DNA from: Bacteroidaceae bacterium
GTDB taxonomy: Bacteria; Bacteroidota; Bacteroidia; Bacteroidales; Bacteroidaceae
Direction of reading: 5' to 3'
DNA: 64,000 nucleotides
NCBI GenBank assembly: GCA_017470425.1
Contig: JAFUYT010000024.1
Location: 1 to 64,000 of the forward strand
A program made the position numbers and the translations under genes. The notes under the pieces were generated by a model that made no database searches, was not told the DNA's origin, and saw only the letters and a program-made list of their open reading frames with translations. Positions 1 to 49,901 of the stretch are shown here, piece by piece (the first letter of the stretch is position 1; each line of letters opens with the position of its first letter).

Positions 1-1373
1 ATAACAGCAGCTATATCGACAAGACTTACGCCCGCATTGACGGCGGCAGCGACGCTCCCGGCTACCTGTGCAGCACCTATCCGCTCTACGCCATGGTCAG
101 CGGCGACGCGCTGACGCTGAAGTGTGGCGTCGTAGAAACGGGCGGACAGCTGTACACTACCGAGGAAATGTGGTATGCCTCGTGCGCTGATATCGCTACC
201 GTCGTCGTCGATGAGAGCTGTAAAAACTATACAGGCGCCTCGCTGCAAAACCTGTTCAACTCGTTCGCAAGCCTGCAGAGCATCAGCGGATTTGAACACC
301 TTAACACCGCAAACGCCACCAACATGAGCAATATGTTCATGTACTGCTACGCCCTGGACAATCTCGACCTGAGCAGTTTCGACACTTCCTGCGTGACCGA
401 CATGTCCAATATGTTCTCCTCTTGCCGCAAGCTGGCAAAGCTCAACCTCTGCGGTTGGGACACCAGAAAGGTCACAGATATGCGGACCATGTTCGAGACA
501 TGCACATCGCTCACCACGCTCAACCTCAGCAGCTTCGACACACGTAGCGTCAAATGGACGGCTCATCTGTTTGGCGATTGCCGAAACCTCGCCACCATCA
601 TCGTTGGTTACGACTGGTCAACAGCCTCCGTGACGAACAGCCTTAGCATGTTCTACGACTGCACCAGCCTCGTGGGGCAGGACGGAACGACTGTCGGCAC
701 CACCACGGATGCCTCCAAGGCCCACACCGGAACGGGCGGCTATCTGACCGACCTGACGCGCACGCTGACGGCCAATGCCGCCAACGGCAAGCGCTGGACC
801 ACGTTCTACACCGACAATGTGGGCTATACCATCAATGGCGGCGAGGAGGCCTGCGCCTATACCGCCACCTACAACGGGGGTGCAGGCACGCTGACGCTGC
901 ACAAGCTGGGCACCGACGGACGCAGCATCCCTGCCGGCACGGCAGTTATCGTCGTGGCCAGCGAAAGCAACACGCAGGTGGGCATGACGGTTGACAACAC
1001 GCTCGGCAACTTTGAGGGCGACAACGATCTGCACGGTGTAGATATAGACACACCCACCAGCACCATCCTGACAAACCTTGGCGACGGGACGCTCTACGTG
1101 CTGGGCAACAAGAATGCCCACTTCGGTTTCCATCAGTTCGAGGGCGCCACCATGGCTGGCCGCAAGGCGTTTCTGCTGGTGGACAGCGGTGTAGCACAGA
1201 GCCGCAGTCTGACGATGGTATTCGACGACGAGACAACAGGCATCAACGAAACTGTTGCTAAGGCTGAAGATGCAGGCAGTGGCTGGTACACGACCGACGG
1301 TCGTAAGCTCAACGCGAAGCCTACCGCAAAGGGGCTATATATTAATAATGGTCGTAAAACTATTGTAAAATAA
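1..1373 (+). CDS. DUF285/BspA-like surface protein, 5' end outside window
   Basis: The reading frame is open from the first bases of the window, so the N-terminus, including any signal peptide, lies upstream. Several copies of the DUF285 repeat are visible (pattern MSNMF..C..L..LDLSSFDT..V.DM), the leucine-rich-like solenoid of BspA-type surface proteins in Bacteroidales. A beta-rich region follows. The last 30 residues hold the pattern GWYTTDGRKLNA then KGLYINNGRKTIVK, a short tail also seen on three minus-strand proteins ending at 18315, 40404 and 47121. I infer export to the cell surface, probably by type IX secretion, and a role in adhesion; no substrate can be named. A 49-aa peptide gene starts 16 bases after the stop. 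An internal ATG at 93 is unlikely to be the true start. Confidence 0.85.
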   Translation, partial: NSSYIDKTYARIDGGSDAPGYLCSTYPLYAMVSGDALTLKCGVVETGGQLYTTEEMWYASCADIATVVVDESCKNYTGASLQNLFNSFASLQSISGFEHLNTANATNMSNMFMYCYALDNLDLSSFDTSCVTDMSNMFSSCRKLAKLNLCGWDTRKVTDMRTMFETCTSLTTLNLSSFDTRSVKWTAHLFGDCRNLATIIVGYDWSTASVTNSLSMFYDCTSLVGQDGTTVGTTTDASKAHTGTGGYLTDLTRTLTANAANGKRWTTFYTDNVGYTINGGEEACAYTATYNGGAGTLTLHKLGTDGRSIPAGTAVIVVASESNTQVGMTVDNTLGNFEGDNDLHGVDIDTPTSTILTNLGDGTLYVLGNKNAHFGFHQFEGATMAGRKAFLLVDSGVAQSRSLTMVFDDETTGINETVAKAEDAGSGWYTTDGRKLNAKPTAKGLYINNGRKTIVK

Positions 1374-1389
1374 AATGGAGGACACCACG

Positions 1390-1539
1390 ATGAAGAAGCA
1401 ATACATACAACCCATCATGCAGGCGGTGAAAATACAGCAAACACAGATGCTGTGCAGCAGCCCTTACGATGATGTAAAATCGCTCCGCACCTACGACGAT
1501 GACGATGATGTCATCAGCGACAAAGACGAAATATGGTAG
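1390..1539 (+). CDS. Small peptide, MKK..YI.P family (49 aa)
   Basis: A GGAGG ribosome binding site at 1377-1381 lies 8 bases before ATG 1390, which decides this start over the in-frame ATG at 1375. The product begins MKKQYIQPIMQAVKIQQ and ends in an acidic stretch closing with DKDEIW. Two other peptides in the window (18043-18198 and 40148-40333, both minus) share the N-terminal pattern and an acidic, tryptophan-containing end. It follows the stop of the DUF285 gene by 16 bases, so the two are probably co-transcribed. There is no hydrophobic signal segment or lipobox. The function is unknown; a RiPP-like precursor, a secretion partner of the upstream protein or a regulator are all possible. 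Confidence 0.7.
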   Translation: MKKQYIQPIMQAVKIQQTQMLCSSPYDDVKSLRTYDDDDDVISDKDEIW

Positions 1540-17462: not shown

Positions 17463-17616
17463 CCGAAAAGGCAGATGGTGATGACCGAAAGGGCAGGGGG
17501 GGGTGGCCGAAAGGGCAGAAGGTGTTAGCTGAAGGGCGGTGGGCCGTTGCCTGAAAGGTCAGGAGGTATTGGCTGATGAGACAGAGGGTGTCGGTCGGAG
17601 GGTCAGAGGGTGTTGG
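17463..17616. repeat. Tandem repeat array A: seven 22-bp units
   Basis: Unit anchors (CCGAAA/CTGAAA and variants) lie at 17463, 17485, 17507, 17529, 17551, 17573 and 17595, exactly 22 bases apart, and the next anchor position, 17617, falls in the first palindrome. A unit is roughly CYGAAAGGKCAG followed by AGGGTGTTGG. Sequence varies between units but the length never does. The first half is a small imperfect dyad (CTGA...TCAG). As 22 is not a multiple of three and units change frame, I do not regard it as coding. A second array with another sequence and the same period lies at 38937-39117. Confidence 0.85.
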
Positions 17617-17705
17617 GTGGATCACCTTGGTGATCCACCTGACGGGTCACGAGGTGTAGCGCAGAAGGACGCATCGTTTCGGGTGGATCACCAAGGTGAT
17701 CCACC
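17616..17705. repeat. Two copies of a palindrome GGTGGATCACC-(TT/AA)-GGTGATCCACC
   Basis: Copies at 17616-17639 and 17682-17705 are perfect hairpins that differ only in the two central bases (TT or AA), so each is the exact reverse complement of the other. The flanks are also related (GAGGTGTAG..GAAGGAC and GGGGTGTGG..GAAGGAC), making a 66-base tandem unit. It directly continues array A. Confidence 0.75.
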
Positions 17706-17963
17706 TGATACGTTGTGGGGTGTGGTGGCGAAGGACTCGATGTGTGTCCCGACAGGACATGGGGTTGTAGCCCAAAGCTTGCATCGATTAGGCCGTCTCC
17801 TGCAAACGTAATTAATTTTATTTTACGATGTTATGATGTTCTTTTCACTAAATGTGTACTGGCGTTATGATCTCTGATTGACATGAAAAGAGAAAGAAGA
17901 CATAGGATTTGTTGATTCCATAATCTTTTTTCCCGCTGAATAGGGGTAGAATCCCATTGAAAA
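17706..17963. other. Intergenic stretch without a recognisable gene
   Basis: The first 100 bases are the degenerate end of the palindrome unit and contain TGTCCCGACAGGACA, a small inverted repeat. From about 17810 the sequence turns AT-rich; no start with a ribosome binding site, promoter box or RNA gene was seen. Confidence 0.5.
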
Positions 17964-18042: not shown

Positions 18043-18198
18043 TTACTCTGACCAGATGTCTGCCCAGTCAGCCTCGGATTCTTTGGTGAGCTGTGCACCG
18101 CCGTCGCCGGTGAATTTCTGGAAGGACTCTGCAATCAGGGTCTCGCAACGCACCTCCACCATGTGAAGTGCGGGAAGGATATATGCTTTCTTTTTCAT
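18043..18198 (-). CDS. Small peptide, MKK..YI.P family (51 aa), ends ADIWSE
   Basis: The product begins MKKKAYILPALHMVEV, has LIAES near residue 25, a variable middle with glycines, and ends EADWADIWSE. Start and end match the peptide at 40148-40333 (MKKNYIVP...MVKV, LAES, SDLWSE), while the middle differs. Gene size is 52 codons with a strong terminator about 54 bases downstream. It starts 117 bases after the stop of a 1126-aa tail-bearing secreted protein on the same strand. No signal peptide or double-glycine leader is visible. Function unknown; the conservation of both ends argues that it is a real gene. Confidence 0.72.
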   Translation of the reverse strand: MKKKAYILPALHMVEVRCETLIAESFQKFTGDGGAQLTKESEADWADIWSE

Positions 18199-18314
18199 AG
18201 TCGTATGCATTTGAAATTTATGATTAATTTGTGATCTAATTCATGGACATTCGTGTAATAGATTTCTCACATGAATTTACCAAGAATTATCTCATTAATT
18301 ATCCATGAATGAAG

Positions 18315-21300
18315 TTACTTCACGAGCACCTTCATACCGTCCACGATGTTCACACCCTTCTGCAACTTACTGAGGCGTTGGCCTGCGAGGTTGTAGATTG
18401 CCTTGTTAACGTGAAGGTCAGCGTCAACGTTCTCGATGCCCGTCGTATTGCCGAAGTCGAAGCCGATGAATCCCTTTGCGCTGGCAGCTGCGGGGAGGTA
18501 GGCCTTGAAACCGGCGAGGGTGGTGATGGCGCTGTCGTCGGCAGGATAGAAGCCTACGCCGCTGTCGCCTTTGCCTAAGTAATAGGCTCCTGCGGGCTTG
18601 GTGATGGTGGCGGCGGAACCAGTGAGAGCCGAGCTGATGGCATCCACGTCGGTGGCGATGGCGAAGTCGTAGCTACCCTCATCACCCTTGAGAATCACAC
18701 CCGTCTCCTTCGGAATCGTCGTCCCTTCAATGGGCGTCAACGTCAGATAGGTTCCGTTGTCGGTGGCAGTGTATGCTGTCACGCCCGTGGGGATGGTCAG
18801 AGCTACAGGGCTCCAGAGCGTGGCGTAGCCGGCGGCAGAGATGCTGACGGGGAGGGTAGTGACTTCTTCTACACCCCAATCGGTATTGTAGCTGCCACTG
18901 GTGACAGCACTTCCATTTCTATTTAGATATGTGTCGCTATCATAACAGTATTCTCCGTCATTGTTGTTGTGAACGGTTCTGCCGTTTGATACTAAAGAAT
19001 ACTTGCCTGTCTGTGATCCCTTTAAGAATGTATAAGAATTAAGAGGATTGCCAACAGTTGCAACATAACATGTATGGTCCATACCTAAGCCACTTCCATA
19101 GAAAATCAGATAGGTATTGTCATCATAGTAGATAATATTATTTGCATTAGCTGTGCCATTCAAAGAGGCTGAATTACCTGCCAAGTTAGAAGTAATGTAG
19201 TTTCCAGAGCATCCCTTAATACGGTAGAAACCATTGCCCGGGGCAACATACAGGGCTATGTTACCAGCAGAATTCGTTTGCTGTCCATAGGAAATATAGC
19301 GCAGTATATAATCGCCCGGTGCAACATTCCGTAAAGTATATTCATTGTTCGATATTGCATCACCAGCATATCCATCATGATAATCACTTGACACGACCTC
19401 ACCAGTTTCGGCATCTATCAGGTCAACACCTGCGATGTCAATGCGATAATCGCCCGATGAATATGTAAATTTCACGCCAACTGTAGCACTTTGGCTCGTG
19501 CCGACTGTTATCTGTTTAACGGCTTGATAGTAAGGCCTGATTGTCGTAATACCGCTGGGTATATCAGACAGGACTTTCCACGGGCTTGCATCGTAGTTCC
19601 AAGTGTCTGCATACGTGTTGTTGAGTTCCATCTCACATGTAGCGTATGACACATAAATTCCATCTCCATTGATGACCACCGTTTTAGTAAAGCCTGCGAT
19701 GTCTGTTACTGTCAAATCAGCAAGGGCAAGAGATGTTGGAGCGATGAAATCCTGACCATGGGAATAGGCTGTAGCATTGTATGTTACGGAAGGAGAACTA
19801 CCGTCGGGAACAGAGGAGAAAACGACGGTATAGAGTGCATACTCCGTGCTCTCTGTAAATTTAAAGTCTGTTGACCAATTTGTGGCTTGTGTCTTTGATT
19901 GTGCATAATAATTCCCACTTTTCGTACCAAATTGTGTATTACCATCAGAAGCTACATAGCGGCCTCCTCCGAGAGAACTATTATACATAGAAATGTAAGG
20001 ATAGTTCGTGCCACCACTTAATTGCCATGCGGCTCCAGTCTCATCTAAGCAAGTTCCTGAATAGGTCAAATATTTGCTCATGTCAGCGGCACTCTGAAAC
20101 ACTATATAATTGCCAGACCGACGCACAATCCAAAGGTTCTCCAGCGGAGACTCAGACGCTGCAGTGCCTTGCGTGAACGTACCACTCACATTCTTCAAGT
20201 ATGAAAGGGTGCTTGATGATGACACATAGTTCTGAATGGTATAGACCTTGCCTATGCGCGGAACATCAACATCGGCCAGGAACGTGTTATACGCTGTGCT
20301 CAGCGTAGAGAAGTCTGCCGACGTTTTTGAAGAGTTATCGAATGTCGTTATGGCAGCCCTGAATGTGATACGAGCAGCAGCACTCGGATAACCAAGCCCA
20401 ACAGGAGCATTGTTTAAGTCACTAAGGTATGTGTAATAATCCGTAGAATAATTAGTATAAGTAACCTTAATCAACTTACGGTCGCTGTCAATGGTAATAT
20501 CGGAATAGCAATTGTCAATGATGCTGGCTGTAAAATCACTTGCAGCTGGAGTGGCGCTCAGAACGAAGAAGCCGTTATTGGATTGTGTGGTGGTGGCTCC
20601 GGAAAGAATATTACTCCCCGTATAGGTCACGGTTCCGGTTGACACAACTTGCCACGCAGCGTAACCCTCCAATTCTTTGACGGCCCAACGGGCATTCCAG
20701 GAACCAACAGCATTTAATGGCGTGTTTAGGGTATTGTAAGGATTGGTATATCTGTTGACTTGTCCATCATTACATTCTGCTACCCATCCCTCGTAAGGTT
20801 TATCTCCCGACACCTTTCGGAACATATTGTAATAGGGGGATGCGGCAGCTGTACCACTAGTATAGGTATAATTGCTATAGAACCCAGAAGATGTATTCAT
20901 AAACATGAAAGATTCCGCTGGCGCAGCGAGGGTTTGATAGCCGAGGTATTTTCCGTCGCCTTCTGCCTTGGGAAGATTATATAATGCTTCGCCATAGGTA
21001 TCAATGCCGTTATGACGCAAAACAAAGTATTGAGGAGTTTGCCCTGTGGTAGCATTATAAACCTTGACACTATTATCGTATAAGGCATATTCATTGTTGT
21101 CTGTAGGTACATTATATAGAGCCACCACTTTTCGGTCTGTTACAGCAGTTCCACTACCCCCAGCCAGCACAATACCCCAGCCTGAATAGGTATCATTGTA
21201 AGCGTAGAATCCCATAGTGTTGGATGTGTTATAGGAGGCTCCATAATACCAGTTCCAAGAAACCATCGCTACACTTTTGCCCTCGTCCGTTTTGAAAGCA

Positions 21301-21695
21301 CGAATGTCATAATACTTGCTGTCTGAATCATCTTCGGTAATGTTCCATGGTACAGAAGGCTTCTCTGAACTAAGGCTGATTTTGTCTTGCCCATCATTAT
21401 AACTCGATAAGGCTTCATAAGTTACCCACTTACCTTCAAAGATACTGTAAATATAATAGCCGTTAGTGTAGCCATCCTCAGCATCTGCTTCATAGAATGC
21501 GAAGAGACCATAATCAGTGCCGGAATTTGTCGCGTTGGTTGTATTGCCTAAATAAAAAGTATTATCAGCACGACAGAATATCTTGTACTGATATTCCGCG
21601 TTACTACCTACGGTAGTTGACACTTTGAGGCCATCCGCCCACGCCCCGCCGACTCCAGTCAGCAGAGCAATCAATAAAAGTAAAAGTTTTCTCAT
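18315..21695 (-). CDS. Large secreted protein with short C-terminal sorting-type tail, function unknown
   Basis: About 1126 residues from ATG 21695, giving MRKLLLLLIALLTGVGGAWA, a clear signal peptide; the frame extends to 21761 but without signal-like sequence. The body is beta-rich and aromatic, with several stretches like YALYNV, KYLGYQT and NGFYRIKGCSGNYI that suggest carbohydrate-binding or beta-trefoil-like units (ricin-type is one possibility). Near the C-terminus is VSISAAGYATLWSPVALTIP, common in Bacteroidales surface proteins. The tail reads AIYNLAGQRLSKL then KGVNIVDGMKVLVK. I infer export and surface exposure. The gene has lower GC than its neighbours. A small peptide gene follows. 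Confidence 0.8.
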   Translation of the reverse strand: MRKLLLLLIALLTGVGGAWADGLKVSTTVGSNAEYQYKIFCRADNTFYLGNTTNATNSGTDYGLFAFYEADAEDGYTNGYYIYSIFEGKWVTYEALSSYNDGQDKISLSSEKPSVPWNITEDDSDSKYYDIRAFKTDEGKSVAMVSWNWYYGASYNTSNTMGFYAYNDTYSGWGIVLAGGSGTAVTDRKVVALYNVPTDNNEYALYDNSVKVYNATTGQTPQYFVLRHNGIDTYGEALYNLPKAEGDGKYLGYQTLAAPAESFMFMNTSSGFYSNYTYTSGTAAASPYYNMFRKVSGDKPYEGWVAECNDGQVNRYTNPYNTLNTPLNAVGSWNARWAVKELEGYAAWQVVSTGTVTYTGSNILSGATTTQSNNGFFVLSATPAASDFTASIIDNCYSDITIDSDRKLIKVTYTNYSTDYYTYLSDLNNAPVGLGYPSAAARITFRAAITTFDNSSKTSADFSTLSTAYNTFLADVDVPRIGKVYTIQNYVSSSSTLSYLKNVSGTFTQGTAASESPLENLWIVRRSGNYIVFQSAADMSKYLTYSGTCLDETGAAWQLSGGTNYPYISMYNSSLGGGRYVASDGNTQFGTKSGNYYAQSKTQATNWSTDFKFTESTEYALYTVVFSSVPDGSSPSVTYNATAYSHGQDFIAPTSLALADLTVTDIAGFTKTVVINGDGIYVSYATCEMELNNTYADTWNYDASPWKVLSDIPSGITTIRPYYQAVKQITVGTSQSATVGVKFTYSSGDYRIDIAGVDLIDAETGEVVSSDYHDGYAGDAISNNEYTLRNVAPGDYILRYISYGQQTNSAGNIALYVAPGNGFYRIKGCSGNYITSNLAGNSASLNGTANANNIIYYDDNTYLIFYGSGLGMDHTCYVATVGNPLNSYTFLKGSQTGKYSLVSNGRTVHNNNDGEYCYDSDTYLNRNGSAVTSGSYNTDWGVEEVTTLPVSISAAGYATLWSPVALTIPTGVTAYTATDNGTYLTLTPIEGTTIPKETGVILKGDEGSYDFAIATDVDAISSALTGSAATITKPAGAYYLGKGDSGVGFYPADDSAITTLAGFKAYLPAAASAKGFIGFDFGNTTGIENVDADLHVNKAIYNLAGQRLSKLQKGVNIVDGMKVLVK

Positions 21696-38936: not shown

Positions 38937-39117
38937 AGCTTTTTGACGTAAGCTCGCGAAGTTAGCCAAATAACCTCGCGAGCTTTCGTTTGTAAGCACG
39001 CGTGCTTATGGCCTTAAGCACGCGAGCTTATGCCCATAACCTCGCGTGCTTATTGCCATAACCTCACGAGCTTCTCGAACCACCCTGACGAGCTTCCCGA
39101 ATCTCCCTGGTAAGGTG
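38937..39117. repeat. Tandem repeat array B: nine 22-bp units
   Basis: The anchor AGCTT/TGCTT or its variant lies at 38937, 38959, 38981, 39003, 39025, 39047, 39069, 39091 and 39113, always exactly 22 bases apart. The core is a 14-base near-palindrome (AAGCACGCGTGCTT at 38994-39007 is perfect; AACCTCGCGAGCTT is a variant), with about 8 bases between, often TATGCCCA-like. It begins 31 bases after the secA stop. Same period as array A at 17463, but no shared sequence. It is not coding, because the period shifts the frame. Confidence 0.85.
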
Positions 39118-40147: not shown

Positions 40148-40333
40148 CTATTCGCTCCAGAGGTCAGAGCCCCAGTAGTCGATCTTGTTGGAAGTGGGAC
40201 CATTGTATTCTTCGTCGGCAGGAGTGATCTGCTGAGTTCCGGACCCCGGATTACCTAAACAACTTTCTGCCAGCACCGTCTGCGTCCCTACTTTCACCAT
40301 ATCTGTTTGCGGTACGATATAATTCTTTTTCAT
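40148..40333 (-). CDS. Small peptide, MKK..YI.P family (61 aa), ends SDLWSE
   Basis: The product reads MKKNYIVPQTDMVKVGTQTV then LAESCLGNPGSG, a variable middle with Gly, Pro and Asn, and DYWGSDLWSE at the end. It shares both ends with the 51-aa peptide at 18043-18198 and the N-terminus with the 49-aa peptide at 1390-1539. AGGAAA 7 bases before ATG 40333 may bind the ribosome. It is the last gene of a run that begins at 51640, 70 bases after the 2231-aa adhesin gene and before a strong terminator. Function unknown. Confidence 0.75.
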   Translation of the reverse strand: MKKNYIVPQTDMVKVGTQTVLAESCLGNPGSGTQQITPADEEYNGPTSNKIDYWGSDLWSE

Positions 40334-40371
40334 TGTTTTGTTTCCTGAAATGAGTTAGACATTGTTTCTTT

Positions 40372-40393
40372 GCCCCTCCCGAGCGGGAGGGGC
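40372..40393. repeat. Perfect palindrome between the giant adhesin gene and its peptide
   Basis: GCCCCTCCCGAGCGGGAGGGGC forms a 10-bp stem with a 2-base turn, similar to the stem of the REP-like elements but without the G-rich tail. It could slow transcription or set the ratio between the two genes. Confidence 0.6.
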
Positions 40394-40403
40394 AAAGAAC
40401 TTG

Positions 40404-43400
40404 TTATTTAATGAGTACTTTCTTACCGTTGATGATGTTCACGCCCTTACGGGATCCGTTGAGCTTGCGACCTGCGAGGTCGAAGATCTGTTGAGCCTCG
40501 GGGGTGTCAATGTCGATGGTCTTGACGCTTGTAGCGAGACCGTCGTCGAAGACGAGAGCCTTGACAGATGCGCCGGTGGGGATGTCGAAGTAAGCGCGGA
40601 AACCCTTGGACGTGGCGGCTGCACCGAGCGGAGCAATCTTAGCTTCAGGCGTCAGTCCGTAGGCCTTGCCGTTGGCTGTGAAACCGTCAGCGGCGATGGG
40701 AGCGAAGGTGCCGCGGAAGACAACACCGTTTTGCTCGGTCATGCCAGCAGTGGAAATCAGAGTGACATCATTCAGAGTGAAGGCATCAGCTTTCTCGTCC
40801 TTCACATAGACGATGTACGGAGTGCCTGCTGTGAGGGCATCGACCTTCGTGAAGTTGAGCGTGCCGTCTGTGTAGCCTGTGAAGGCGTATGCGTAAGAGC
40901 CATCACCGAAGAAGGCGCTCACATCTGCCACCGCGAAGGGCAGGCAGAGACTGTTCCAGCTCTCGGCATTGAAGGCGCGGGAGAGGGTGAGGTTGAAGGT
41001 ACCTGCGGAAATCGTTTCGGGATCCACTTCCTCGCTCAATGCGTAGCTGACCTTCATCGCGTTCTCTGCCGTTGCGAAGGCCTCGCTGTCGTCGCTGTAG
41101 TAGATCTTGATCTGTGCCGTCTTGTTCTCGGGGATAGCGTAGGTGAAGGAGAATGTCTTAGTGCCGTTCAGGGCGATGTCCTGAGCTTCGGCAGTCTGTT
41201 CTGCCTCTGTTGCACCATCGATGAACAACTTAGCATAGACACCTGTTTCTGCGGCAATCAGAGAAGTGACGGTTGCAGAGATGGTAGCATCGTTGCCCTT
41301 CGTCGTCGTGGCGGGGAAGGTGGAGGTGGTGACGTAGAGGTCACGGGTGTTGTTCTTCTTCGTCCAACCGAGGAAGTTGTCAACCTTCACGCGGGCACCG
41401 GAAATCTTCACATAGTAGTCGCCAGCAGCGAGACCGCTGATGTTCACATCCTGATAGCTGGTGGTCAGCGTCAGACTGCTTAAGTCAACCTCTGTCCAAT
41501 CTACACGATCCTGAGAGGTATATACCTTGAAGGTCGGAGCAGAATTGCTGCTGGTACGGGCGGCCTGGAATGTTAGAACATCAGAGGAGCCTGCAACAGC
41601 GAGTTGCTCTGTAATTAGGTCTTGAGGAGTGGCTGTATCCTCCTGCATAGCTTGCGCACTATATACTTTCCAATATCCTCCGAAGTACCATCCTGAGGGC
41701 TGTCCAGAAGCAAACTGTTCATCGAGCGCGTTCGGATTGAGAATCGTTGCGTTGTAGTTGATGACGAAGTTTCCGAGGCTGGTCTCTACCGTCACTGCAC
41801 CCTCCTTGTATTCGTAAGGAGCAGCAATAGGCATGGTGATGGTCAGCGTTGCGGACTCGCCGTTAGCCAGCGATGTAGCGCTGACAGCAGCGGTGGCGGC
41901 ACCGGTAACGGTCACAGGCGAGGTGATGGTCAGCGTGCCGTTACCAACATTCTTGATGGTGTAGGTAGCCGTAGCCTCTTCCTTGATAGAACCGAAGGCC
42001 TTGGTCACGCCGCTCTCAACAGCCGTCGTACTCTCCTTCACCTGAATCATGGAGGCGGTGTTGTTGAGCTCGCCGCCGTAGATGTTATCGAGCTGGATGT
42101 AGTAGCGTCCCTTGAACTCAATGATGGCAGTGACGGCAGCATCATTGTCGAGGTCAATCTCATGAGAGCTGAAGGTGCTGCCAGAGGTGTTGATAGCGGC
42201 CGTGTAGTCCACATAGTCAGACCAACTGATACCGCCATTCACGCTGTAGCGAACCTTCAATGAGCCCGAATAGGGGTTATAGGCATCGAAGAAGACCTTC
42301 TCGCCTGCAGCCAGGTTGATAGGCTGAGTGATGAGAGAATTCTCATCAGAAGCAGTTGTTCTGGCGGTCTGCGAAGAAACGCTCCATGAGCCTGTCTCCA
42401 CGAAGCTGGAAGGAATCTCGCTGGCGAAGTCAACATACCACTTCGAGGCATCGCGGGTCTTACCGCTCAGGTTGATGGTCTTGCCTGCAACACCGTCGGC
42501 AGAGATGGTCAGAGTAGCGTTGTGCTCCTTATACTCAGTGCTGGCCTTCAGCGTAGCCGTCACCTTGATGGTCTGGCCGACGGGGATGTTTGCTTTACCA
42601 TCAGTGATGGTAGCAGTGCTGCCATCGGGAACAGACAGAGCCACCTCGTAGTCAGCAGCATCAGTACCAGACAGAGCGGCAGTCATATTCGCCATTGCTG
42701 CCGTACCGCTGTTGGTAACGGTAATCTCATAGTCAGCAGCAGCAATCTGCATACCGAAGTCGTAGCTGGCAGCAGCAGGCGAGAGTGTCATCACAGGCTC
42801 CAGAACAGCGGTGTAGCCGTAGATGCGCTCAATGTCGATATAGGTTCCTGTGAACTTGATCTTTGCACTACCGGCGGGAATACCACTGATAGATACAATC
42901 TCATAGGAAGTTGAACTTGGAGTAATGCCCTGAGAAGCAGACCATGTCTCGCCGCCATCAGTGGAGTACTGGTATGACAGCGTGCCGGAATTGTATTGTT
43001 TCTTGGCTTTAATTGACATGCTCTCACCTGCTGCTACGGTATATGTACCTGTAGTAAGTGTCCCAGAGTTCCAACCCACAGATGCACTTGTGTTAGCTGT
43101 TACGCTCCAGTATGTGCCGCCATCCCAACCTGCGGGGAAGGCATCGAGCGTAGTGAAGTTGATGTCGGTCTTGTCGCCAACCACCACACCAGAGGAGGTG
43201 ACGGTGAAGGTGCCCAGGGTGTTGTCGCCGCTGTCTTTGGCGGTCAGCACGATGTCGCCTGCATGGTAGCCCTCATTGTGGTCAGCATCGTTCTCCATAG
43301 AGATGGTGAGGCTGGTGCTTTCGCCTGCGCCCAAAGAAGTCTTACCCAGCGCGGCGGTGAAGCCAGCGGGAGCATCACTCTTGGTGAGCGTCATCGTGCC

Positions 43401-46400
43401 CGTACCTACATTCTTAATATAATAGGTAGCGGTCTTGTTCTCTGTGACGAAGCCCCAAGAGTTGGTAGCGCTGCCGGAGGTGAGCTCGGAGCTGAACTCC
43501 GAGTCGCTATATACAGCAAATTCAGGATCATTGTCGTCGTAGGTGAAGCCGTTGAGGCCATTTACATAGACGTAGTAACCTACGAACTGCAGTTTGTTGA
43601 CTGTGGTTGGGATGTCGTCAAGTTCAACGACGGTGTATTCGGTGTTGTTCAGTTGCGTATTGTCGAGCTTCTTTGTGTAAGCCGTCCAGGTAGCACCATT
43701 GTCGGAGGAACCGTTGATGGTCACATAGTAGCTGCTGCCCGAGTAGCGCTGCATAGCACTGATGGCCAGCTTCTGACCCTCAGCAACCACAATCTTCGGC
43801 GTCTCCAGTTTGGAAGAGCTGCTTGTTGCAGTGGCACCGTTTGCGCTGAACGACCAATAGTTGCCTGTATTCGTCCAGCGGCTGGGCAGTGATGTGAAGG
43901 TCTCGAAGATCTTCGTGTCATCAGCCACATAGCCCTTCACGGTGAAGGTCTTTGCAGTCACGTCATCACCGCTGATGGTGACAGTACCTGTCTGCGAACC
44001 CTTTGTGGTGTTCTTCAACGTAACAGTGAACGTAGCCGTACCGCCATTGGCAGCAATCTCATTAGCATCGTCTGTGACGGCAATCTCAAAGTTAGCGTTG
44101 TCGCACGTTACAGAGAGATTCTCCAACTTGGCCGTACCGCTGTTCGTGATGGTGTAAGCATCAGAGGTCGTGTTAGCAGTCACCATACCGAAGTTCTTCG
44201 TGGTGCCTGCTTCGGCGAACTCCATGAAGGGTTCCACCAAAGCCGTGAAGCCGTATATGCGACGGATTTGCACATACTGTCCGGCGAACTTCACCTTAGC
44301 CTGTCCAGCAGCGATGCCACTGATAGCAAACACCTTCCATTCGCTATTGGACAGTCCGGAAATGGCAGTCGCTTCAGTCCATTCTGAACTACCAGCCTTG
44401 TAGCTGTAGCTCAGAGAACCTGTCTGGTATTGCTGTGCTTTGGCTTCAAAGAGCAGTGTTTCGCCTGCTCCTACGGTGTAGGTCTGTGAGGTCAAGTCGC
44501 CTGCAGCACCACTGTTATAGCCAATGCCAACATACTGGCTGTTGGTTACCGACCAAGTTGCACTTTCCCAACCAGCAGGCAGTGCAGCCAGTTCGTCGCC
44601 AACGAAATCAATATCGTTCTTGCTGCCTGCAACAGCACCGTTGAGGGTGACAGTAAAGGTTCCGAGCACCTCGTCGGTGTCATGATTCTTAGCGGTCACG
44701 GTCATTGTACCGTCGTGCAGCCCCTCAGTAGCAGCCATATTGATGGTCAACGTAGCCTTCTCGTTCTCAGTGAGTGCGGTTTCGTCGACAGTAGTGGTGA
44801 AGCCGTCAGCCTGTATTATGGTCAGATCAATCTGGCCCGTCCCCGTGTTCTTGATATAATACTTCTGCTGTTGGGCCGTTGTTACAAACCCGAAGTTCTT
44901 CGTTGCTGCGGCAGTCTGTGCTACTGTGCAGTCCTCGTCGCTGTACAGGGAAAGCACGGGATCAGGTGCGTATGTGAAGCCATTGAAATTCTTCAAATAT
45001 GCGTAATAGCATTTCACTCGCAACTTGTTAATCTTCTTGCCTTCGACTTCTACGTCATCAATATCGTCGAGTGTAATCAGTTTATAAATATTCGTCTCAC
45101 TACCGAATGCGCTATAGTCAAGTTTCTTTGTGTAGGCCGTCCAAGTCTCGCCGCCATCGGTAGAGCCTTCGATTATCAGATACCCGTAGGTCGCGCTGCT
45201 TCTGAGTTTCGCATAGATGACCAGGGACTCATCATCGGTGACGTTGATTTTTGGAGTGGTAAGCGTGGAATTCTCATTCGTGTTATATGCACCATCAGCG
45301 CTATAGTTCCAGTTATAGGTGCTGTAGCCTGACTTATAGGCATATTCAGTCCAGTGGCTGGGAGCTGCACTTGTGAAGGTTTCATTAATCTTTGTGTTGT
45401 CTAAAGTATATCCGCTGACAGGAATCTCAACAGTAGTCTGATCTGTAGCCTCAATGCTGATAGTGCCGCTAAATGCTCCAACGTTGGCTGTATTCACAGC
45501 AACGGTTATGGTCTGTTGATTATTTGCATTGATAGTTGAATTATTTAATGTAGGTGTAATAGTGATGGCATCTGCAGCACCAGTTGTAGCGGCATAGCTA
45601 ATGGTAACTCCTGTCATGTTTGCGGCACCACTATTCTTGATGACCACATCTTGTGAGGAAGTACCAGCAACCATTCCAAATGCGATACTCTCGGTCTCTA
45701 CATCCAATTTCGCCTCCATCGGCGCTTCTTTCACCATGAAACCATCAAGATAGATATACGCATCGCCAGAACCATAATTAGAGGTACCTTTGAATACAAT
45801 AACTACATTGTTTTTAAATTCGTCTGGGATACTCAGCTCAATTTGTTTCCAGGCACTTTGTCCAGTTAAACCCGTGGCAAGTGATGTAGTATAACTGTCG
45901 CCGCCGTCATTGGAAATGTAAACAGAAAAATCACCGCCTGTCGGATTTTTATACCAAAAGCTTAACTGCATTACTTTGTCTGCGGGAAGATTCATGGCTG
46001 GTGTCTTTAATACATTCCAAATGCCGTTTTGGTTGTTATAGGAATTGAAGCGAAGTCCTGCGCCATCTTGTCCAGTAGCATAGTAGCTCCATTTGTATGA
46101 GTCGTTGATTGTAGTTCCTTCGCTATTATCCCAGTTCGCAGGAATACCCGAAGATATTCCGTTGAAGGTCTCAGAATAGGGGAATGACGTGATTGGAGCA
46201 GGTTTTGTCGTAAAACTTATGCTAGACCAATCGCTAACGTTATCACCATCAACGGTCTGAACTCGTACTTGGTATTCAGTTTCTGCAGTTAGCGAAGTGA
46301 TGTTATATGATTTGGATATTAGGTTATTTTCAGTTATCCAGTCTTCTTCTGTTGCTACTTTATAGTTCAAGTTCCATTTATCGCCATCTGAAGTCCAACT

Positions 46401-47099
46401 AACTTGTGCAGACTGATCCGTAATATTTGCTGTAGCCAATCCACTTGGAGGTGCTACATAACCACTAGCAGAGGCGTGATAAAAAGTTGTCTTAGGAAGA
46501 AAGTTCCTTGATGTGCCAGTCGCCCCAACAGAGTTTATCCCGCTTGAACTATAGGCATTTACAGATGCGCTCGAAGCGCTTTCTCCATAGAAGTAAGTGT
46601 GGGGATAGCTACCACCTGTTGTAGTTTTATAAATACCGATAAGAAGATTACCACCATTGTAATGATACGCCTTATCAAAAGTGATGTTCAATTTATACTC
46701 ATTAGAAACGCTCAATGTACCTGAATAGACTACATCACTCTCGTCATACCCATAGAAACTGGTTGAGGCAAATGCTGATTCGGAGACTTCTTTTAAAAAC
46801 ACTTTTATAACAGAACTAGCATTCCCTATATATCCTGTTCCAGATGAGGAACTTAAGTAGAAGGTTAACCCTGTTATGATATTTCCAGACATAGGAGATA
46901 TCTGCGTGCTTGGCATGATGATTTCACCTTTGGTTGCATAGTCGCCACAATATCCATAGGTGGGAACGTACTCGTTCGTAGTTGACCCGTCATAGACCGT
47001 CAGCTCATCTGCCCTCGCCTGACTCACTCCTATCACGAGGGCGAAGGTGAGGAGGAGCAGCCATTTGCTACTCCGGGTTAGTTTAGAATAGTGTTTCAT
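40404..47099 (-). CDS. Giant secreted modular adhesin-like protein (2231 aa)
   Basis: A signal peptide (MKHYSKLTRSSKWLLLLTFA... ending SQARA) begins the protein. A fibronectin type III-like domain is at about 215-300 (PSGLATANITDQSAQVSW, AETEYQVRVQTV). Then two module types alternate five to six times: an immunoglobulin-like unit of the choice-of-anchor D type (FGMV...Y.I.NSGTA.L..L) and a jelly-roll unit (W.V....Y..S.GWNSG, then VAAGE.L...A, then SYQYSTDGGETW). The tail reads QIFDLAGRKLNGSR then KGVNIINGKKVLIK, as in other proteins here. I infer surface display through type IX secretion and a role in adhesion or matrix. It starts 21 bases after the previous gene's stop. The repeats may make assemblies unreliable here. 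Confidence 0.85.
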   Translation of the reverse strand: MKHYSKLTRSSKWLLLLTFALVIGVSQARADELTVYDGSTTNEYVPTYGYCGDYATKGEIIMPSTQISPMSGNIITGLTFYLSSSSGTGYIGNASSVIKVFLKEVSESAFASTSFYGYDESDVVYSGTLSVSNEYKLNITFDKAYHYNGGNLLIGIYKTTTGGSYPHTYFYGESASSASVNAYSSSGINSVGATGTSRNFLPKTTFYHASASGYVAPPSGLATANITDQSAQVSWTSDGDKWNLNYKVATEEDWITENNLISKSYNITSLTAETEYQVRVQTVDGDNVSDWSSISFTTKPAPITSFPYSETFNGISSGIPANWDNSEGTTINDSYKWSYYATGQDGAGLRFNSYNNQNGIWNVLKTPAMNLPADKVMQLSFWYKNPTGGDFSVYISNDGGDSYTTSLATGLTGQSAWKQIELSIPDEFKNNVVIVFKGTSNYGSGDAYIYLDGFMVKEAPMEAKLDVETESIAFGMVAGTSSQDVVIKNSGAANMTGVTISYAATTGAADAITITPTLNNSTINANNQQTITVAVNTANVGAFSGTISIEATDQTTVEIPVSGYTLDNTKINETFTSAAPSHWTEYAYKSGYSTYNWNYSADGAYNTNENSTLTTPKINVTDDESLVIYAKLRSSATYGYLIIEGSTDGGETWTAYTKKLDYSAFGSETNIYKLITLDDIDDVEVEGKKINKLRVKCYYAYLKNFNGFTYAPDPVLSLYSDEDCTVAQTAAATKNFGFVTTAQQQKYYIKNTGTGQIDLTIIQADGFTTTVDETALTENEKATLTINMAATEGLHDGTMTVTAKNHDTDEVLGTFTVTLNGAVAGSKNDIDFVGDELAALPAGWESATWSVTNSQYVGIGYNSGAAGDLTSQTYTVGAGETLLFEAKAQQYQTGSLSYSYKAGSSEWTEATAISGLSNSEWKVFAISGIAAGQAKVKFAGQYVQIRRIYGFTALVEPFMEFAEAGTTKNFGMVTANTTSDAYTITNSGTAKLENLSVTCDNANFEIAVTDDANEIAANGGTATFTVTLKNTTKGSQTGTVTISGDDVTAKTFTVKGYVADDTKIFETFTSLPSRWTNTGNYWSFSANGATATSSSSKLETPKIVVAEGQKLAISAMQRYSGSSYYVTINGSSDNGATWTAYTKKLDNTQLNNTEYTVVELDDIPTTVNKLQFVGYYVYVNGLNGFTYDDNDPEFAVYSDSEFSSELTSGSATNSWGFVTENKTATYYIKNVGTGTMTLTKSDAPAGFTAALGKTSLGAGESTSLTISMENDADHNEGYHAGDIVLTAKDSGDNTLGTFTVTSSGVVVGDKTDINFTTLDAFPAGWDGGTYWSVTANTSASVGWNSGTLTTGTYTVAAGESMSIKAKKQYNSGTLSYQYSTDGGETWSASQGITPSSTSYEIVSISGIPAGSAKIKFTGTYIDIERIYGYTAVLEPVMTLSPAAASYDFGMQIAAADYEITVTNSGTAAMANMTAALSGTDAADYEVALSVPDGSTATITDGKANIPVGQTIKVTATLKASTEYKEHNATLTISADGVAGKTINLSGKTRDASKWYVDFASEIPSSFVETGSWSVSSQTARTTASDENSLITQPINLAAGEKVFFDAYNPYSGSLKVRYSVNGGISWSDYVDYTAAINTSGSTFSSHEIDLDNDAAVTAIIEFKGRYYIQLDNIYGGELNNTASMIQVKESTTAVESGVTKAFGSIKEEATATYTIKNVGNGTLTITSPVTVTGAATAAVSATSLANGESATLTITMPIAAPYEYKEGAVTVETSLGNFVINYNATILNPNALDEQFASGQPSGWYFGGYWKVYSAQAMQEDTATPQDLITEQLAVAGSSDVLTFQAARTSSNSAPTFKVYTSQDRVDWTEVDLSSLTLTTSYQDVNISGLAAGDYYVKISGARVKVDNFLGWTKKNNTRDLYVTTSTFPATTTKGNDATISATVTSLIAAETGVYAKLFIDGATEAEQTAEAQDIALNGTKTFSFTYAIPENKTAQIKIYYSDDSEAFATAENAMKVSYALSEEVDPETISAGTFNLTLSRAFNAESWNSLCLPFAVADVSAFFGDGSYAYAFTGYTDGTLNFTKVDALTAGTPYIVYVKDEKADAFTLNDVTLISTAGMTEQNGVVFRGTFAPIAADGFTANGKAYGLTPEAKIAPLGAAATSKGFRAYFDIPTGASVKALVFDDGLATSVKTIDIDTPEAQQIFDLAGRKLNGSRKGVNIINGKKVLIK

Positions 47100-47120: not shown

Positions 47121-49901
47121 TTACTTTATCAGATATTTTTTGCCGTTCTGGATGACAATGCCCTTGTAGCTGTCGCTGACGCGGCGGCCGGTGAGGTCGT
47201 AGCGGATGTCTCCTGTGACAGGCTTTTGGACCTTCAGGTCGGCGATGCCGACGGGCTTTTCGTTCTTGTAGATGACGACGTCGGAGAAGTAGGCCCACAG
47301 GGAGATGGCGGTCGTGGAGCCGTTGAGAAGGATGTGCTCGAAGTTGTAGAACGCCTGCTCCTCCTCATCGTAGAAGAACATCATGTCGGTGAGGGTGTCG
47401 TTGCTGCCGCCGCAGTAATAGATGTCCTCGTTGCTATAGCGACTGATGTACTGACCCAAGGGGAAAAGGTAGGCGGTCGGACCGTCGTAGTCATATTTGC
47501 TGCCGCGCATCCATGCGTTACCCGTGATGGGGTTGGGGAAGTTGAAGGCCAGGTCATCGCCGTCGAACACGACCTCGATGTCCTCAATGTCTTCCTCGGT
47601 GAGCTCTTCGTCGTTGTCAGACATATGATGGAACGTGTAGCTGATGTGCCAAATCTCCTTGACGGAGGTGTCCGGAGCCAGTTGGAAGCCGCAGAGGTTG
47701 TCGATGCCGTTCTGGTATCTGGCGGTGAAGCGCAGGTGGTAGAGGCCGTCGGCAGGTGCCGTGAAGGACATCTGTTTGTGGTACTTGTCGCCCTGTTCCT
47801 CATCGGCGGCTTGGTAGCTGTAGATGGTGTGCCAGGTTGTCTGATTGTCATCGGAGTATTCCACTACGAGAGCTTCGTCGCTCCAGCGCAGGTAAGCATC
47901 CCATGTTAGCACATCGCCCTCTTTGGCTTGTAGGCGCGGGGTGACGAGTGTGGCTTCTGTCGTGCTCTGGGGAGCCAATGCCATCGGCGTGGTGTTGTCA
48001 TCGAAGGCACTGGTGGTGCCTACGGTCCATCCTGTAGTAGTCCATCCCGTGGGTAGCTCGCCTTCGTCGAAGTCTTCGCTCCATACGTTGGGGTCGAGTA
48101 AGGTGGCGGTGGCGTTGATGATGACGTCGTCCAGTCCTTCGGCAGTGGGATGGATGGTGATTGTGGCGCTCTTGGCACCGTAGTCACTACTCATCATCAG
48201 GTTGACTTCGAACGTAGTGCTCTCGCCGGCTTCCAAGCTGAAGTCAGCCTTTGAAACGGCGAACACGCTCTCATCGGACGATGTGATGATGCCCTCGAGG
48301 GTGCCTGTGCCGCCATTGGTGATGGTGTAGGTCTTCGCTGCGGGTTGTGTGCTGACCTTTCCGAAGGCGGCGTCATTCGTGGGCGTGACGACGAGCGTCG
48401 GCGCGTTGAGGTCGAGTTGGAAGCCTTCGAAATTGTCGAGGTCGTAGTCATCGTTGGCGAAGCGGAATTGATAGGAGCCGCTCTCCAGACCGTCGATGGT
48501 GAAGGTAGCAAATTCGTCGGAGGCGTTGAGCCAGTCGCTTGTCTTGTACTCGCTGAAGCTGCCGCCGTCCTTGGCCATCTCAATCTTCATCTTCACATAG
48601 TTGGATGTAGCGCGGTACTGGAATGTCATCGATGCGCCAGCAGTGACTCTCAGGGCGGGAGTGGTCAGGAAGTGCTGATAGCCGGTGGAGTAGTTGCCAT
48701 AGACGGCGTGCGCCACACCATCGGAGAAGGTCCAGCTGGCATCTGCCTGCCAGCCGTCGGGGAGAGCATTGGCGGAGAAGTCTTCAGTCCAGATGTTCGG
48801 GTCTTGAACGTAGGCTGAGGCGGTGATGACTGCTGCCTCCCCGCTGTTGGGTGTGATGGTGACAGCAGCCTCATGCAGACCATAGGCGTCGGCATCGTAG
48901 TGGTAGGTGATGCTGAACGTCTCTGTGCCACCTGCTGCTACCGTGATGGTCTCTTTGCTAACGGTGAATGAAGCGTCTGTGGAGGCAATCGTGGCTACCA
49001 GCTCGGCATCACCTGTGTTGCTGACAGCGATGTCCTGTGTGGCGTCTGCCGCCACCCGGCCAAAGGCTATTGTGAGGGGGGAAACGTTCATGATGGGAGC
49101 AGGCGCGCGGTAGATGCTCTTCAGCTGGATGGTGAAGGGGCTGTTGGCATCGTCGGACGTGATGGTGAGCGTGCCCTCGGTGTCGTGGTCGGGGGTGGCA
49201 ATGGTCAGCTGTGTAGATGCCTGCGAGGCGATGGCGGTCACGTCGGAACCCTCGGTGATGAGGAAGTCGCCGGTGACGCTAATGCTGCTGATGGTCAGCT
49301 CTTTCTTGCCGATGTTGTTGAGCGTGAACGTCTTGGCTGTTCCTGCTGAGACGGGTACGCCACCGAAGTCGTAAGAGTCGCCAGAGGCGAAGCCGTCGAT
49401 GGTCAATGTAGGTGTCTCGGACACCTGATAGGGGGTGTAGGTGACATCGTCGAGAGCGGCATAGTTCAGGGCAATAGCCAGCTGCGTTCCTCGTGGCAGC
49501 GTAAAGCTGAACTTACTCCAAGTGGGTGTCGATGTGGTGCGCAGGGACCCGGTGCTGTAGAGCTGCTGACCGAGGCCGTCGGCACTGTATTCATAGACGA
49601 TGACCTCGCTGGCACGGTTCTTGTTGTAGGCGCGGGCGTAGAATTCGAAGTTGCCCTCGACTGGCTCCGTGACCACATAGTTGTCTGTCGTTGATGAGGA
49701 GTAGGAGAAGAGGCCTTTGCCGCTGCGGGCGCGGTCGTCGGCATTCATCACGTCGCCAACCAAACTCCAGCCTTCGGGAAGGCCGCTGTTGAAGTTGGCG
49801 GTCAGTGTCTCAGTAGCACTTGCAGCCGTGCTGCCTCCGAAGAGAACTGCCACGGCCGCCAGTACGCAAAACAATAGTTTTGAGGATTTGCGTTGTGTCA
49901 T
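47121..49901 (-). CDS. Secreted choice-of-anchor-domain protein (926 aa)
   Basis: A signal peptide (LLFCVLAAVAVLFGGSTAASA) and three copies of an anchor-like module are visible, with YDFGGVPVSAGTAKTFTLNN, IAFGRVAADATQDIAVSNTG and AAFGKVSTQPAAKTYTITNGG as the starts of immunoglobulin-like units. Jelly-roll units lie between (LPEGWSLVGD, LPDGWQADASW, LPTGWTTTGW). The C-terminus reads IRYDLTGRRVSDSYKGIVIQ then NGKKYLIK. It has the same building plan as the 2231-aa protein downstream, from which it is separated by 21 bases, and probably shares its transport route and role. Confidence 0.85.
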   Translation of the reverse strand: MTQRKSSKLLFCVLAAVAVLFGGSTAASATETLTANFNSGLPEGWSLVGDVMNADDRARSGKGLFSYSSSTTDNYVVTEPVEGNFEFYARAYNKNRASEVIVYEYSADGLGQQLYSTGSLRTTSTPTWSKFSFTLPRGTQLAIALNYAALDDVTYTPYQVSETPTLTIDGFASGDSYDFGGVPVSAGTAKTFTLNNIGKKELTISSISVTGDFLITEGSDVTAIASQASTQLTIATPDHDTEGTLTITSDDANSPFTIQLKSIYRAPAPIMNVSPLTIAFGRVAADATQDIAVSNTGDAELVATIASTDASFTVSKETITVAAGGTETFSITYHYDADAYGLHEAAVTITPNSGEAAVITASAYVQDPNIWTEDFSANALPDGWQADASWTFSDGVAHAVYGNYSTGYQHFLTTPALRVTAGASMTFQYRATSNYVKMKIEMAKDGGSFSEYKTSDWLNASDEFATFTIDGLESGSYQFRFANDDYDLDNFEGFQLDLNAPTLVVTPTNDAAFGKVSTQPAAKTYTITNGGTGTLEGIITSSDESVFAVSKADFSLEAGESTTFEVNLMMSSDYGAKSATITIHPTAEGLDDVIINATATLLDPNVWSEDFDEGELPTGWTTTGWTVGTTSAFDDNTTPMALAPQSTTEATLVTPRLQAKEGDVLTWDAYLRWSDEALVVEYSDDNQTTWHTIYSYQAADEEQGDKYHKQMSFTAPADGLYHLRFTARYQNGIDNLCGFQLAPDTSVKEIWHISYTFHHMSDNDEELTEEDIEDIEVVFDGDDLAFNFPNPITGNAWMRGSKYDYDGPTAYLFPLGQYISRYSNEDIYYCGGSNDTLTDMMFFYDEEEQAFYNFEHILLNGSTTAISLWAYFSDVVIYKNEKPVGIADLKVQKPVTGDIRYDLTGRRVSDSYKGIVIQNGKKYLIK

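Follow-up and report, generated by a model that had tools for sequence, protein, structure and literature searches.

Peptide genes and their neighbors in the window

The window (the whole 64-kb stretch of DNA that was analyzed; its position 1 is the beginning of contig C21) opens with an ORF at positions 3-1373 on the + strand, referred to here as partner 1, which is truncated by the contig and window edge, matches DUF285 (4.7e-34), and carries a T9SS-like tail with the C-terminal end KGLYINNGRKTIVK. Peptide 1 (1390-1539, + strand) is a gene of 49 codons plus stop, whose 49-aa product has the mid-motif MLCSS and ends in DEIW. It starts 16 bases past the TAA (1371-1373) of partner 1 and has a GGAGG ahead of it at 1377-1381; a longer start is possible at the in-frame ATG at position 1375. 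These details confirm an earlier note on this DNA, which had described a 49-codon gene with a binding site behind a tailed DUF285 protein.

Two further peptide genes lie on the - strand. Peptide 2 (18043-18198; 51 aa, ending in DWADIWSE) is 3′ of partner 2 (18315-21695, -), a secreted protein with a signal peptide ending in GVGGAWA and the tail LQKGVNIVDGMKVLVK, and the intercistronic spacer between the two genes (18199-18314, -) contains an AT-rich long inverted repeat and aligns with the spacers of eight other cassettes of the genome. Peptide 3 (40148-40333; 61 aa, ending in YWGSDLWSE) is 3′ of partner 3 (40404-47099, -), a 2231-aa secreted protein with the tail SRKGVNIINGKKVLIK, and a 15-bp inverted repeat (palindrome) at 40366-40399 (-) separates them. 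The positions of these sister peptides, each 3′ of a similarly tailed protein, are as the earlier note had claimed. Its count of three out of three stands insofar as all three window peptides are found 3′ of tail genes; it does not extend to the tail genes themselves, two of which have no peptide. One of these (47121-49901, -; tail, 31.2 bits) leaves just 21 nt to the start of the next gene and thus no room for a peptide, and the other lies at 51901-54735 (-; L046). Neither matches domain X, the domain described below.

The alignment of the three window peptides is invariant at M, K, K, Y, I, P, V, S, and W. None of the three has a Pfam or NCBIfam match above the cut-off, with two matches falling below the threshold (E values of 0.061 and 0.19). 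By eye, short intergenic repeat units are also visible in the window at 17600-17720 and 38980-39110 (GGTGGATCACC..GGTGATCCACC and CTCGCGAGCTTA-type, respectively).

A family of small coding genes in one genome

A search of the genome with the DNA pattern ATGAARAARNNNTAYNNNNNNCCN, which encodes M-K-K-x-Y-x-x-P, returned 14 matches, and the reversed control returned none. Thirteen of the 14 (12 distinct) open a peptide of 49 to 61 aa, and all 13 of these are located 3′ of a tail-bearing ORF; the remaining match (L013) is a chance ORF of 34 aa. A profile built from the 13 peptides identified 25 matches in the genome, which reduce to 22 distinct ones because contigs C12/C25 and C23/C24 carry duplicates, and every one of the 25 lies 3′ of a tail match that has the same orientation. 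The earlier note had proposed to check whether the peptides are spread at random relative to tail genes; by these counts, the pairing goes beyond chance. Peptide 1 scores 2.3e-14 against this profile, which includes peptide 1 itself. The assembly is 72% complete, and the duplicate stretches on C12/C25 and C23/C24 score identically, so that genes on them are double-counted.

Across genomes, 157 distinct YxxP peptides were profiled, 19 of them gathered by a rule that requires YxxP and the remainder found through a profile or by their position. Their consensus runs from KK-x-Y-I-x-P through a strand-like stretch to [MI]-[LI]-A-x-S (A in 70% and S in 77% of the peptides) and a variable acidic middle, and 152 of the 157 have a Trp no more than 14 residues from the end, mostly after [DN] and [IL]. 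Chance ORFs were ruled out as the source of these peptides, since none was found beside 246 control ORFs and the reversed pattern had no match. Judged by sequence, the peptides are a true coding family with a KxYxxP start, an [MI][LI]AxS middle, and an acidic end with [DN][IL]W. The coding conservation that the earlier note had asked about was seen in 24 of 25 gap-free peptide pairs of at least 60% identity, where pN was lower than pS, with the qualification that these close pairs are not independent and include one locus twice. We regard the peptides as being under purifying selection and conserved as protein.

The segmented appearance of the peptide brings to mind the precursor of a ribosomally synthesized and posttranslationally modified peptide (RiPP). 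In that case, the N-terminal half (YxxP ... MLAxS) would serve as the leader that a maturase from another locus reads, and the acidic Trp end would form the core of a product that accompanies the surface protein. YxxP recalls the leader motif of lasso peptides, and this resemblance speaks for such a precursor, as do the 22 distinct copies scattered over this genome and the succession of a conserved N-terminal half, an AxS boundary, a variable middle, and a conserved Trp end. In the 25 close and non-independent pairs, however, the N-terminal, middle, and C-terminal parts are about equally conserved (0.80, 0.79, and 0.71), which is not the expected pattern of a conserved leader and a variable core. 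The position profile of the 157 peptides also contains no double-glycine cleavage motif of the kind found in GG-leader peptides of Bacteroidales, and the sole PqqD/RRE-type match of the genome (C22:49611) lies among genes that by eye look like housekeeping genes, away from any peptide. The equal conservation of the segments and the lack of a linked RRE in this genome weaken the RiPP reading, and we consider it unlikely.

Domain X, not the tail, marks the partners

The tail profile has 87 matches at an E value of ≤10 in this genome, and the 3′ side was read at 43 tail loci (L152-L191 and L044-L046). A peptide stands beside 19 of these tail genes and is absent within 450 nt of the other 24. These 24, among them the window gene at 51901-54735, are the highest-scoring tail genes that have no peptide match; for tail matches with lower scores, coverage came from the genome-wide peptide profile alone. 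All 22 partners of the distinct peptides have a C-terminal domain of about 150 residues ahead of the tail, here termed domain X. Leave-one-out models of this domain recovered all 22 partners at 38.6 to 126.5 bits; in the window, domain X lies at 762-1232 (+) in partner 1 (38.6 bits, the weakest of the 22), at 18444-18884 (-) in partner 2 (93.3 bits when left out of the model), and at 40542-41000 (-) in partner 3 (93.2 bits when left out). Among 21 peptide-less tail proteins that were compared, several of which are enzymes (glycoside hydrolases and peptidases), domain X exceeds 10 bits in just two (51.8 and 27.1 bits). A genome scan with the 22-partner model gave 28 matches. The 25 that score 96 bits or more coincide exactly with the peptide genes, and no peptide match accompanies the remaining three (51, 40, and 28 bits).

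The domain X of the 22 partners has no PDB match at an E value of ≤0.1, and no Pfam or NCBIfam model matches the domain X/tail region in more than 3 of the 22, those that do being models of the tail. The earlier note had taken the type of tail as the mark of a partner. We ruled this out, as the 24 tail genes above and all six tail-only ORFs of the controlled count below are without a peptide. The domain X-less tail genes that were examined have none, and the tails that do stand next to peptides vary widely in the 40-gene set from other genomes.

Linkage of peptide and domain X across genomes

A search with domain X plus tail in other genomes yielded 263 loci, the best 80 of which were kept. 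Nearly all of the 80 come from metagenome-assembled genomes titled Bacteroidaceae, Prevotellaceae, Prevotella, or Bacteroidales, with rumen or gut as a frequent origin, and they include the strains Alloprevotella tannerae ATCC 51259 and Prevotellamassilia timonensis An873. A peptide follows directly on the 3′ side at more than 10 bits in 65 of these best 80 loci, starting no more than 1 nt from the stop of the partner in 5 of the 65; the exceptions include one locus without room (L246) and one whose peptide scores 7.8 bits and is a member by eye (L290). A controlled count over the same best 80 of 263 loci accepted a peptide at more than 8 bits with YxxP and demanded at least 430 nt of room. 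It found peptides behind 66 of 79 domain X ORFs (≥20 bits), 0 of 6 tail-only ORFs, and 0 of 246 other ORFs of at least 200 codons, many of the last being not real genes. The 13 domain X ORFs without a recognized peptide leave three possibilities: the peptide is not an absolute requirement, works in trans, or escaped recognition.

For the second set, we went down the list of domain X matches in other genomes and took the best 40, from 23 genomes, irrespective of tail or peptide. A peptide is present in 38 of the 40, a 39th scores 7.9 bits, and one gene has none. The tails of these 40 are strongly unlike those in the window. The two sets overlap (L224 and G110:C26 carry the same peptide) and share genomes, so the two tests are not fully independent. 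Class-wide, a 25-row peptide profile at an E value of ≤1e-4 matched 5 of 395 genomes, four of them in the same family including this genome, with limited sensitivity.

At the level of sequence and gene order, the peptide and the secreted protein with domain X and a C-terminal type IX-like tail make up a conserved two-gene unit, which occurs in 22 distinct copies here and has relatives throughout the family of this genome. Its first gene encodes the large protein, and the peptide gene comes second at a distance of -1 to about 300 nt, often behind a folded spacer. Since the two are nearly always encoded one right after the other, the large secreted protein and the peptide probably work as a pair.

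Adjacency of this kind could be genetic only, if domain X, tail, spacer, and peptide recombine together onto new passengers as a single 3′ module. Near-identical tails and spacers do occur on different passengers in this genome, and an orphan ORF of 45 aa (C33:45952-46130; L187) ends in a complete tail, has 56 nt of the spacer element behind it but no peptide, and is apparently a relic of a copied 3′ module. Set against this, the link persists in the 23 other genomes of the 40-gene set with very different tails, beyond the reach of recent copying, and we give joint transfer as the whole explanation little probability.

A second context 5′ of lipoprotein genes

We collected 74 peptide loci of other genomes, consisting of 29 and 40 loci from a longer list of peptide matches (in list order, skipping two contig-edge places) and 5 from the class-wide search. 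Five of the 74 had less than 300 nt upstream and were dropped. Among the remaining 69, a tail (≥10 bits) or domain X (≥20 bits) is found upstream in 57, both in 50, and neither in 12. By eye, 7 of these 12 (L082, L090, L100, L102, L145, L149, and L151), as well as the dropped locus L094, have the peptide just 5′ of a lipoprotein-like gene, which in L102 is a Pfam fimbrillin (Mfa_like_1). Half of these eight loci belong to one genome, G068. We take this arrangement to be a second context of the peptides, rarer than the one 3′ of a partner. The other five of the 12 (L130, L133, L136, L143, and L146) fit neither context; at L146 (G020:C39), the peptide is located 8 nt past a protein that by eye has a dockerin-repeat-like C terminus in place of domain X and tail. 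A Cys in the middle motif is present in six of the eight second-context peptides and likewise in peptide 1, and other Cys-type peptides come after tail genes (L142 and L150). In G068:C28 (L302), three lipoprotein genes form an array, and at least two of them are preceded by a Cys-type peptide.

Peptide 1 is followed by a lipoprotein-related gene (1575-2387, +), which has an LRR_5 match below the cut-off and shares 38% identity, over 172 aa, with the C-terminal part of a lipoprotein of the G068 array. Within 1553-2387, the frame of the ATG at 1553 stops early, and a 270-aa ORF is read in another frame. The stretch looks like a 5′-truncated relative of a lipoprotein of the G068 peptide array, and this remnant is a candidate rival or former partner for peptide 1. 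As its upstream partner has domain X and its downstream neighbor is a candidate former partner, we consider peptide 1 the least typical of the three window peptides, with features of both contexts.

The pairing of the peptide with surface-type proteins of two kinds would suit a subunit that reaches the surface with its partner by a nonclassical route and becomes part of it. Such a subunit, one of the roles offered in the earlier note, is disfavored by the lack of an export signal: 153 of 161 peptides fall below the 5th percentile of 42 tail-protein N termini on a measure of hydrophobicity alone. We therefore hold an exported subunit to be improbable.

Association with type IX secretion

This genome encodes sprA and PorV. 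Among 151 genomes of the family, sprA (TIGR04189) is present in 98 of the 100 genomes with domain X and in 13 of the 51 without it. For the peptide (E value of ≤1e-5), sprA is found in 44 of 46 genomes with a match versus 67 of 105 without, and domain X is found in 45 of 46 and 55 of 105, respectively; the 40-gene test implies that the peptide profile misses many members at this threshold. No sprA was found in two genomes with a peptide match. One of them, G010, has a PorV match of 500 bits; in the other, G006, PorV is missing too, and the single peptide is in the second context, 5′ of a lipoprotein gene. A further second-context genome, G013, likewise matches neither sprA nor PorV, from which it follows that the second context needs no type IX secretion.

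The C termini of 3 of the 22 partners match the type A sorting-domain models TIGR04183/PF18962 weakly at an E value of ≤0.1 (best, 4.5e-4 and 0.0073), and the other 19 have no match at that value. A typical signal peptide was recognized by eye in 17 of 19 partners (L185 and L187 being doubtful) and in window partners 2 and 3. AWA is a frequent ending of the partner signal peptides, and a Trp is located within residues 15 to 36 in 16 of the 22 peptide partners and in 6 of the 21 peptide-less tail proteins.

Folded spacers between the genes

When spacers of at least 40 nt were compared with mononucleotide shuffles, shorter ones being left out, 37 of 57 folded with z below -3. Nine spacers of this genome, including 18199-18314 of the window, align over the AT-rich long inverted repeat. 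The ratio of the partner and peptide products may be set at the RNA level. The arms of the intercistronic inverted repeat also have relatives in arrays of short repeats at C23:80619-81872 and C24:3374-4627 of this genome.

Folding of this extent, together with the position of the second-context peptide 5′ of its gene, would be compatible with a regulator of the operon, in which the small ORF and the folded spacer tune expression of the large gene, or of the lipoprotein in the second context, and the protein product matters less. The amino acids are nevertheless conserved while synonymous sites change, and a peptide gene that lies 3′ of its partner, as in the main context, cannot be a leader for it. 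We judge this account quite unlikely.

Co-variation and a proposed role for the peptide

Peptide distances correlate with domain X distances (r = 0.62, n = 65; r = 0.63, n = 55), also within this genome (r = 0.37, n = 22), a value reached in none of 2000 permutations. The corresponding correlations with tail distances are 0.42, 0.43, and, within this genome, 0.37. Between genomes, domain X tracks peptide distance more than the tail does, and within this genome the two are equal. Shared phylogeny remains in the cross-genome permutations; it or joint inheritance of the 3′ module, rather than contact, could explain part of the co-variation. The proposal of the earlier note that the peptide belongs with its secreted partner is supported by the linkage across genera, the purifying selection, and this co-variation.

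We tentatively favor, at somewhat under an even chance, the reading that the peptide is a cargo-dedicated small partner or escort for a class of type IX cargo. The absence of a signal peptide, the one-to-one pairing, and the close spacing suggest a cytoplasmic escort, which would remain in the cytoplasm and act on the partner encoded with it, either ahead of export or in its course. The peptide may bind the late-emerging domain X/tail region as a small cargo-specific escort, and it would thereby keep this region export-competent or mark it for a secretion route. Two contact sites are conceivable, namely the conserved and strand-like N-terminal half (KxYxxP...V.VE..MLAxS) and the acidic Trp end, which the variable linker would join. 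The peptide gene adjoins the cargo gene, one per cargo, which is a criterion for cargo-specific chaperones. Two observations count against the escort reading, namely the 13 domain X ORFs behind which no peptide was recognized and the second context, which does not depend on type IX secretion. A broader proposal, possible in our estimation and on the doubtful side, is that domain X defines a separate Prevotella-family class of type IX cargo that requires one leaderless Trp-tagged mini-partner per cargo. This would amount to an undescribed cytoplasmic selection step, which may be connected with an ancestral pairing that involved fimbrillin-type lipoproteins.

Prevotella-type bacteria, which encode many large surface proteins, occur abundantly in the gut and rumen. 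A near-invariant pairing of domain X with a protein of about 50 aa, present here in 22 copies, would be a missing piece in how such proteins are made or sorted, and it yields two new families to annotate and a rule by which many small genes can be located. No such pairing is described in the titles and abstract openings of the open literature, a body that mostly leaves out subscription papers and preprints, or in passages of PMC10202324 and PMC10352776.

Comparison with known systems

Type B cargo genes of type IX secretion are usually clustered with cognate PorP/SprF genes, according to PMC10202324, and the unit described here resembles them in combining a secreted protein that has a C-terminal signal with a clustered gene for a cognate partner. 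The partner here differs in being a leaderless peptide of about 50 aa and not an outer membrane protein, and the tail resembles type A. The tails of the partners recall the type A sorting domain itself through the three weak matches noted above, and the other 19 C termini have no match at an E value of ≤0.1. The peptide shares with precursors of lasso and other RRE-dependent RiPPs a YxxP near the N terminus and a short length, whereas no linked RRE is seen in this genome and the peptide is paired with a large secreted protein. Like the chaperones of type III secretion, the peptide is small, acidic, encoded beside its cargo gene, and presumed to be cytoplasmic; unlike them, it is far smaller, and its cargo is expected to cross by Sec and type IX secretion.
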